Below are positions 34,158 through 37,496 of a stretch of DNA of 46,310 bases, piece after piece (the stretch's first letter is position 1; the number at the start of each line of letters is the position of its first letter). The position numbers were made by a program, and so were the translations under genes. The notes beneath the pieces are model-generated. The model was not told the origin of the DNA. It saw nothing but the letters and a program-made list of their open reading frames with translations, and ran no database searches. The stretch comes from Actinomycetes bacterium (GTDB taxonomy: Bacteria; Actinomycetota; Thermoleophilia; BMS3ABIN01), in assembly GCA_021790115.1 (NCBI GenBank), contig JAJYIM010000013.1, positions 1 to 46,310 on the forward strand. The letters are read 5' to 3'.

Positions 34158-37100
34158 TTAACTTACCCGCGCAATTAATATATTCAGCGACTCGTCATCG
34201 ACTGTAATCGTAGCTACTTGTGGTCCGGCAACTGGCTCGAAACTGAGCTCGCGGCAGAGCGTTTCCGCTTTGAAAAATTCGGTGAATTCGCGGACAATAC
34301 CGGCGAGCAGGCCTTCACCGAAAATGGTGGCGGAAATGTTGTCGTCAATTTCAAAACCGGCCAGTTTGCGCAGATTTTGCACTTTATGCACCAGCTCTCG
34401 AGCCAGCCCCTCGCGGATCAGCCCATCAGTAACTTGTGTATTAATGCCAACGGCGCGGTTGCCGCTTTGCTCGATGGCGTAACCGTCTTTTCCCGCTTTC
34501 TCAATAAGCAGATCAGCGGCAGAAAGCTGTTCTTCGCTGCCACCGACAGAGATGCCAATGCTCCCGTTCGTTTCCAGCTGCATCACGGCGCGCTGAGCGT
34601 CCAGTGCGGCAATAGCGGCATCAACCTGTGGACGGCGAGGGCCAAAGCGGGGCCCCAATTTTTGCAGGTTGGGTTTCAGCACGACGGAAAACAAGCAGGC
34701 GTCGTCGGTTGCGTATTTGATTTTTTTGACATTTAGCTCATCCGTAATCAAATGTGCCAGGCCCCGCAACTGATCCTGCTCCTCGGCCCCTGCGACCACT
34801 ACCGCTTCAGAGAGGGGCTGTCTTGTCTTCACAAGAGCCTTGTTCCTGGCGGCGCGGCCCAGGTTGACAATATGGCGGACAAGCTGCATCCGGTTGGCAA
34901 GGTCGCTGGTTCTGATGGCAGATGCCGGGAATCTGCACAGGTGCACGCTTGCCGGCGCATCGCCATCGATACTGACGACCAGGTTGCGGTAGATTTCTTC
35001 CGAGACAAATGGCACGTAAGGAGCGAGCAGTTTTGCCGTGGTAACCAGGCACTCGTGCAGCGTCAGGTAAGCGCTGATTTTGTCGCTGTCCTCTTCGCTT
35101 TTCCAGAAACGCCTGCGGCTGCGGCGAACGTACCAGTTGGACAGATCATCGACAAAAGCCTGGATCTTCCGGCCGCTGGCGGTGGCGTCATAGTTGTCAA
35201 GCCCATCCCTGACTTCAGCAACTAAAACCTGAAGGCTTTCGATAATCCAGCGGTCCATCAGAGGCCGGTCTGGCACTGGAATGTCATGCTCCAGCGGATT
35301 AAAAGCATCGATGTTGGCATAAACCACAAAAAAAGAATAAGTATTCCATAGTGTCAATAAAAACTTGCGCACTGTTTCCGCGATCGCCTCCAGGAAAAAA
35401 CGGCGCGGGAACCAGGGCGAGCTGACTGTAAACAGGTACCAGCGAAAAGCGTCGGCGCCCTGATTGTCGAGCACCTGCCAGGGTTCGACGACATTGCCGC
35501 GGGATTTGCTCATCTTCTGGCCTTCGCGGTCAAGAATGTGTCCCAGGCAGACAACGTTCCTGTAGCTGGAGGAGCCAAACAGGAGCGTGCTTACCGCCAT
35601 CAGGCTGTAAAACCAGCCGCGGGTCTGGTCTATGGCTTCGCAAATGAAGTCTGCCGGGAAACGCTCATTGAACAGCTCTTTGTTTTCAAAAGGATAATGC
35701 CACTGGGCCACCGGCATGCTGCCGGAGTCAAACCAGGCGTCGATAACCTCCGGCTCCCTGGCCATCTCCTGGCCGCACTGTGGGCATTTGAGCTTCACCT
35801 CATCAATGAAGGGACGGTGCAGGTCAAGATTCTCTCCCGGATCGGATACGGCCATCTTTCTCATCTCGGCAATGCTGCCAATGCAAATCTGGTGGCCTTC
35901 CCGGCAGCGCCAGATGGGCAGCGGCGTGCCCCAGTAGCGCTCACGCGAAAGCGCCCAGTCGATGTTGTTTTCCAGCCAGTTACCGAAGCGGCCGTGTTTG
36001 ATGTGCTCCGGGTGCCAGGTGACCGTCTCATTGGCCTTAAGCAACTCCTCCTTGATCGCGGTCGTTTTGACATACCAGCTGGCCTTGGCGTAATAAATCA
36101 GCGCCGTGTCGCAGCGCCAGCAATGAGGATAGGAGTGCTCGTAGGGAACATGCGCCAGCAACAGGTGGCGCTGCTTAAGTTCCAGCACTATCTCTTCATT
36201 GGCGTCCCGGACGAACTGGCCCGCCCACGGCCTGACCGTCTCGGTAAAGCGGCCTTCCTCATCAACGGGATTAATTACCGGCAGCTCATGCCGGCGCGCC
36301 ACCAGCATGTCGTCGGCGCCGAAAGCAGGTGCGATATGAACGATGCCACTGCCCTCGTCGGCTGAGACAAACTCCGCTTCCACGATGTAATGCGCCTTTT
36401 TATCCGGCTTGATGAAATCATAGGGAGGAATGTAAGACAGCCCTGACAGCTCGTCAGCAGGGATCTCGCGGATGAGCCTGGCTTCGTCCTGAAAAAGTTT
36501 CTCAGCAAGATTCCTGGCCATGATTAGTCGGTTTTCTCGATATTTGATCTCGGCGTATGTAATGGCGGGGCTGATAGCGGCGGCGACGTTGCTGATCAGT
36601 GTCCAGGGGGTCGTTGTCCATACCAGCAGCGACAGCTCCGGCTCGTCGGCAAGAGGAAAACGCACATAAATGGAGGGGTCTTCAATAGTTTTGTATCCCT
36701 GATCTACTTCGTGACTGGAGAGCGTGGTGCCGCAACGGGCGCAATAAGGCACCACCTTGTAATCATAGTAAAGCAGGCCCCTGTCCCAGATTTGCCGCAG
36801 GATCCACCAGACGCTTTCAATATAATCGTTGGTGAGCGTGTAGTAAGCGTCCTTTGTGTCGATCCAGAAGCCAATGCGCTCTGTGAGCTTTTCCCAGTCT
36901 CCCAGGTAGCGGTAGATGCTCTCGCGGCAGAGGCGGTTGAACTCGGCGATGCCCGCCTGTTCGATATCACGCTTGCCGCTAATTCCGAGCTGCCTTTCCA
37001 CCTCCAGCTCCACCGGCAGGCCATGCGTGTCCCAGCCGGCCTTGCGGGGCACGTGGTAACCGCACATCGTGCGGTAGCGGGGAAAAATGTCCTTGAAAAT

Positions 37101-37331
37101 ACGGGAAAGGACATGGTGGGAGCCCGGCTTGCCATTGGCCGTTGGCGGACCTTCATAAAAGACGAACTCGCCTTTCTCTGAAGGCAGGTTCAGACTCTTC
37201 TCAAAAATCTTGTTGTCACGCCAGAAGGTGAGGATCTCAGTTTCCATTTCCGGGAAACGGACCTGAGGCGAAACTTTTCGGTAAATCTGTTTTTTCTGTT
37301 TACTGGAACTGCTCAAGGAACTTCCGGTCAA
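34158..37331 (-). CDS. ileS: Isoleucyl-tRNA synthetase, type 2, with G-S-H-H in place of the HIGH motif
   Basis: 1057 residues, the length of eukaryote-like IleRS2. The N-terminal EGPPTANGKPGSHHVLSR contains the class I signature position, but where H-x-G-H is expected it reads G70-S-H-H73. KMSKS is intact at K606 (QKMSKSRGNVVEPW). The editing (CP1) domain has DEGSGIVHIAPAFGADD, zinc-type cysteine pairs occur at YCARCG and KCPQCG, and WFDSGSMP marks the catalytic core. Swapped G-x-H-H motifs have been described in some IleRS2 enzymes that resist the antibiotic mupirocin very strongly. It charges tRNA(Ile) and edits valine. No T-box leader is seen upstream; instead copy 2 of the hairpin repeat begins 12 bp before the start. 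Confidence 0.97.
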   Translation of the reverse strand: MTGSSLSSSSKQKKQIYRKVSPQVRFPEMETEILTFWRDNKIFEKSLNLPSEKGEFVFYEGPPTANGKPGSHHVLSRIFKDIFPRYRTMCGYHVPRKAGWDTHGLPVELEVERQLGISGKRDIEQAGIAEFNRLCRESIYRYLGDWEKLTERIGFWIDTKDAYYTLTNDYIESVWWILRQIWDRGLLYYDYKVVPYCARCGTTLSSHEVDQGYKTIEDPSIYVRFPLADEPELSLLVWTTTPWTLISNVAAAISPAITYAEIKYRENRLIMARNLAEKLFQDEARLIREIPADELSGLSYIPPYDFIKPDKKAHYIVEAEFVSADEGSGIVHIAPAFGADDMLVARRHELPVINPVDEEGRFTETVRPWAGQFVRDANEEIVLELKQRHLLLAHVPYEHSYPHCWRCDTALIYYAKASWYVKTTAIKEELLKANETVTWHPEHIKHGRFGNWLENNIDWALSRERYWGTPLPIWRCREGHQICIGSIAEMRKMAVSDPGENLDLHRPFIDEVKLKCPQCGQEMAREPEVIDAWFDSGSMPVAQWHYPFENKELFNERFPADFICEAIDQTRGWFYSLMAVSTLLFGSSSYRNVVCLGHILDREGQKMSKSRGNVVEPWQVLDNQGADAFRWYLFTVSSPWFPRRFFLEAIAETVRKFLLTLWNTYSFFVVYANIDAFNPLEHDIPVPDRPLMDRWIIESLQVLVAEVRDGLDNYDATASGRKIQAFVDDLSNWYVRRSRRRFWKSEEDSDKISAYLTLHECLVTTAKLLAPYVPFVSEEIYRNLVVSIDGDAPASVHLCRFPASAIRTSDLANRMQLVRHIVNLGRAARNKALVKTRQPLSEAVVVAGAEEQDQLRGLAHLITDELNVKKIKYATDDACLFSVVLKPNLQKLGPRFGPRRPQVDAAIAALDAQRAVMQLETNGSIGISVGGSEEQLSAADLLIEKAGKDGYAIEQSGNRAVGINTQVTDGLIREGLARELVHKVQNLRKLAGFEIDDNISATIFGEGLLAGIVREFTEFFKAETLCRELSFEPVAGPQVATITVDDESLNILIARVS

Positions 37332-37342
37332 GGGACTATCTT

Positions 37343-37397
37343 AGAATCTATCTCAAGAGGCATATTCTGCTGCGAACTACCTTTTGAGATAGATTCT
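37343..37397 (+). repeat. 55-bp hairpin repeat, copy 2
   Basis: Same length and orientation as the copy at 351-405 and identical at 51 of 55 positions. The four differences lie at element positions 15, 17, 36 and 37, near the stem base and loop; the outer arms (AGAATCTATCTCAA and complement) are unchanged. One difference leaves a G-T wobble rather than a break in the stem, as expected if the RNA fold is kept. It sits between ileS (-) and the divergent gene at 37534. Confidence 0.85.
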
Positions 37398-37496
37398 TAG
37401 TACCTGTTCTGCCGCGGCCGGCCAACGCGGCGGCCGCTGGCGCCCGCCTTTGTCAAGACACTACAATATATGTAGTCTGCCATCCATTTGGCAACT

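Follow-up and report, generated by a model that had tools for sequence, protein, structure and literature searches.

The ileS locus and its class I signature

The window, the whole stretch of 46,310 nucleotides that was analysed, carries an open reading frame of 1057 codons (1057 amino acids when counted from an upstream TTG, the true start being uncertain) that has been assigned to ileS (Table 1). With 954 bits against a cut-off of 621.4, the equivalog model TIGR00392 places the product among the isoleucyl-tRNA synthetases (IleRS), and class I catalytic, anticodon-binding and C-terminal DUF5915 domains have been recognized in it. The neighbouring genes, which encode Usp, a class-V aminotransferase, YmdB and an isocitrate/isopropylmalate dehydrogenase, form a housekeeping context.

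Table 1. Positions of ileS, its signature motifs and leader elements in the window.
Feature	Position	Strand	Remarks
ileS, type 2 isoleucyl-tRNA synthetase	34158..37331	-	TIGR00392, 954 bits; PF00133, PF08264, PF19302 (DUF5915); best PDB matches P. megaterium IleRS2 8c8u/v/w
KMSKS, canonical	35502..35516	-	residues 606-610; coordinates computed from residue numbers
GSHH, swapped HxGH class I signature	37113..37124	-	codons GGC TCC CAC CAT
Short MITE-like hairpin	37343..37397		between conserved box and ileS start; absent there in 5/5 congeners examined
TATATTGTAGTGTC box, probably part of promoter	37457..37470	-	related sequence precedes ileS in most family members shown; single copy in genome

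Class I synthetases usually carry HxGH at the signature position. In the window enzyme, Gly-Ser-His-His follows directly after GPPTANGKP (residues 70-73 when the TTG at 37331 is taken as start), and the four minus-strand codons, which run from 37124 to 37113 and thus fall inside the interval 37095-37130 given by an earlier note on this DNA, confirm the reading proposed there. The same note had described KMSKS and the editing motifs as intact, which agrees with the canonical KMSKS and, by inspection, with the presence of WTTTPWTL and of GSGIVHIAPAFGADD including the conserved Asp.

Regarding the type of the enzyme, the window protein has been found far nearer to IleRS2 of known structure (992-1005 bits for Priestia megaterium IleRS2 and 967 for that of Thermus) than to IleRS1 (361 bits for Staphylococcus aureus, 343-351 for P. 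megaterium), and these comparisons assign it to type 2. Among solved structures, those of P. megaterium IleRS2 and its GVHH mutant (PDB 8c8u, 8c8v, 8c8w, 8c9d) come closest and align over nearly the full length, although the wild type there has a canonical HVGH and that organism also possesses an IleRS1. A CxxC zinc motif has not been found in the C-terminal domain, as CxxC occurs only at residues 197, 404 and 516, with none after 519; this fits the expectation for type 2 enzymes, in which SD3 is without the zinc motif (Brkic et al., 2023; PMC10485003).

The gene is chromosomal and is the sole ileS found in the 97.6%-complete genome. A search for a second copy, which the earlier note had recommended, has left only weaker matches, namely a 903-residue ValRS-like protein with HMGH and RMSKS and other class I enzymes. 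One may nevertheless consider that the window gene is an accessory, horizontally acquired IleRS of the MupA kind and that the housekeeping ileS has been missed by the assembly. The plasmid-borne staphylococcal MupA and MupB are likewise type 2 IleRS, and their models match the window protein over nearly the full length, as they would match any IleRS2. The resulting scores of 910 and 900 bits, however, stay far below the cut-off of 1900 of NF000257 and NF000258, no other ileS has been found in a genome of this completeness, every family member sampled for the gene has an orthologue with 68-81% identity, and the housekeeping context argues in the same direction. MupA and MupB are resistance genes of the acquired, accessory kind; the window gene, in contrast, is the sole ileS on the chromosome, and the accessory reading is considered very improbable.

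Distribution and age of the swapped signature

The motif has been compared among 69 IleRS genes out of 67 genomes of the same class, in which G/AxHH has been observed in all 69 and HxGH in none (39 GSHH, 18 GVHH, 8 GAHH, 2 AAHH, 1 GIHH and 1 ASHH). Within the window's own family, all 16 distinct IleRS carry GSHH, with the 68-81% identity to the window enzyme given above. The recurrence of the same residues in independent assemblies of many species excludes that the motif reflects an error of sequencing or assembly, the probability of which is negligible.

A wider comparison, based on the best 80 matches in a species-level genome collection, has shown G/AxHH also in Actinomycetota, Chloroflexota (Anaerolineae, Dehalococcoidia and Thermoflexus), Cloacimonadota, Poribacteria, Armatimonadota and some Pseudomonadota. 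HIGH or HVGH prevails in the Clostridia-type sequences among these matches. In a 151-row tree, built on a sample partly of our own choosing and with a deep root that is unreliable owing to long branches, 2-3 motif changes have been counted, and the window sequence is nested well within groups that are entirely GxHH. On this distribution the swap is older than the window's family, whatever the root, and by the same comparison it is an ancient motif that has been passed on vertically and is fixed across the class members sampled.

These observations bear directly on the possibility that the swap was acquired recently in this lineage as an adaptation to inhibitors of the mupirocin type encountered in its habitat. 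Such a scenario could draw on the mechanistic link between the swap and resistance, and on the suggestion that the swap originated under antibiotic pressure (Brkic et al., 2023). Nonetheless, a recent event in the window's lineage is refuted by the presence of G/AxHH in all sampled class members, across several families, and by the tree, which places the change far deeper than genus or family; the carriers in Chloroflexota and other phyla count against it as well, so that recent acquisition is rated as highly unlikely. Since the motif is ancient and vertically transmitted, it provides no evidence of recent mupirocin selection.

Some IleRS of other families in the class are divergent, with ∼35-37% identity to the window enzyme and GPITANxxxGVHH or AAHH at the signature; in these the KMSKS is changed to [E/P/A]MH[K/R/G]S, so that both class I signatures are altered in one enzyme. 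Two genomes of the class have been seen to hold two ileS each, one with GVHH and one divergent copy with GSHH.

Expected response to mupirocin

The G/AxHH form has been described in 86 of 163 prokaryotic IleRS2 and in no IleRS1, and it shifts the Ki for mupirocin from the μM to the mM range (Brkic et al., 2023). Values in the mM range have been published for the enzymes of Deinococcus radiodurans (DrIleRS2) and Streptomyces griseus (SgIleRS2); for the naturally ALHH-bearing DrIleRS2 the Ki amounts to 6.6 mM and falls 823-fold upon change to HVGH. Conversely, GVHH placed into the IleRS2 of Thermus or P. megaterium has raised the Ki ∼200-fold or more at a loss in kcat of at most about tenfold. 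According to the structures, the tip of the signature helix is shifted in IleRS2, and the third His replaces the first without displacing the adenine and clashes with mupirocin (Brkic et al., 2023).

The window GSHH has the Gly or Ala at position 1 and the His at positions 3 and 4 that characterize this form. As in the G/AxHH IleRS2 of S. griseus and D. radiodurans, positions 1 and 3 of HxGH are exchanged in a type 2 architecture with KMSKS kept, and, as published for the IleRS2 of some bacteria, it is the only IleRS found in its genome (Brkic et al., 2023). The connection drawn in the earlier note to mupirocin hyper-resistant GxHH enzymes is right. We consider, with a probability of about 0.93 for the explanation as a whole, that the gene encodes the housekeeping and sole IleRS of an uncultured actinobacterium, a type 2 enzyme with the known G/AxHH signature. 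Judging from the structures of the P. megaterium GVHH mutant, the third-position His would stand in for the first in catalysis, and its side chain would fill the space needed by mupirocin; charging of tRNA(Ile) is accordingly expected to be normal and the Ki for mupirocin to lie near the mM range. Because the window enzyme shows every sequence feature of G/AxHH IleRS2, natural insensitivity to mupirocin is the likely phenotype and the reading to be preferred.

Natural hyper-resistance in an uncultured lineage, as the earlier note had put it, thus stands as the expected phenotype, whereas its implied restriction to this gene or lineage does not, G/AxHH being the rule in the sampled class. Nor can a chromosomal, sole GxHH IleRS be regarded as a special finding, since IleRS2 as the only housekeeping IleRS of some bacteria and GxHH have both been documented (Brkic et al., 2023) and the trait is ancestral here; the window GSHH is an ordinary inherited trait and a further example of a published form. 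It leaves the known mechanism unchanged. What it contributes is a class-wide example of a swapped HIGH motif in the only IleRS of the cell, which supports the published view that the swap was anciently fixed without a lethal catalytic cost, and implies that whole uncultured lineages may be intrinsically insensitive to mupirocin.

A difference from the published forms concerns position x, which is Ser in the window enzyme, as against a hydrophobic residue in described HxGH and ALHH or GVHH in the assayed enzymes (Brkic et al., 2023). Ser is more polar than the Val and Leu of the latter and is common at x in the sampled class (39 GSHH and 1 ASHH among 69). A paper mentioning GSHH together with IleRS, or a Ki for a GSHH enzyme, has not been found in the literature searched. 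That GSHH constitutes a kinetically distinct sub-variant, widespread in one class of Actinomycetota and tuning ATP binding or resistance otherwise than GVHH and ALHH, seems unlikely.

The ileS leader and a dispersed palindromic repeat

Upstream of ileS, most family members shown share the pattern TATATTGTA[G/T]TGTC, often with AAGTTGCAAAA ∼20-25 bases before it, and from this conservation the box in the window is possibly an ileS-specific promoter or operator. The 109-nt stretch around the 55-bp leader hairpin has a predicted RNA fold of -38.2 kcal/mol (z -4.6). A T-box leader has been rejected, as no Rfam match was obtained at gathering level; the permissive matches, to microRNA families, are caused by the hairpin, which is itself a copy of a dispersed repeat.

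Two copies of this palindromic repeat lie in the window, at 351-405 and 37343-37397, and about 100 occur in the genome. Its arms give 223 matches (≤2 mismatches) in the 1.8-Mb genome vs 2 for a reversed control. For the arm pair of 1 kb on contig C1 a mobilising transposase has not been found. Matching inverted repeats are missing from two DDE_3 transposases at other places of the genome, and an autonomous partner was not found. The inverted arm AGAATCTATCTCAAAA is common to a long (∼180 bp) and a short (∼55 bp) form, of which the long one folds with about -97 to -100 kcal/mol. Copies are often flanked by T/A-rich dinucleotides, and the repeat looks like a MITE family. The copy in the leader could affect ileS expression. 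The repeat is rarer in congeners, and 51 arm matches have been counted in a genome of one other genus of the family.
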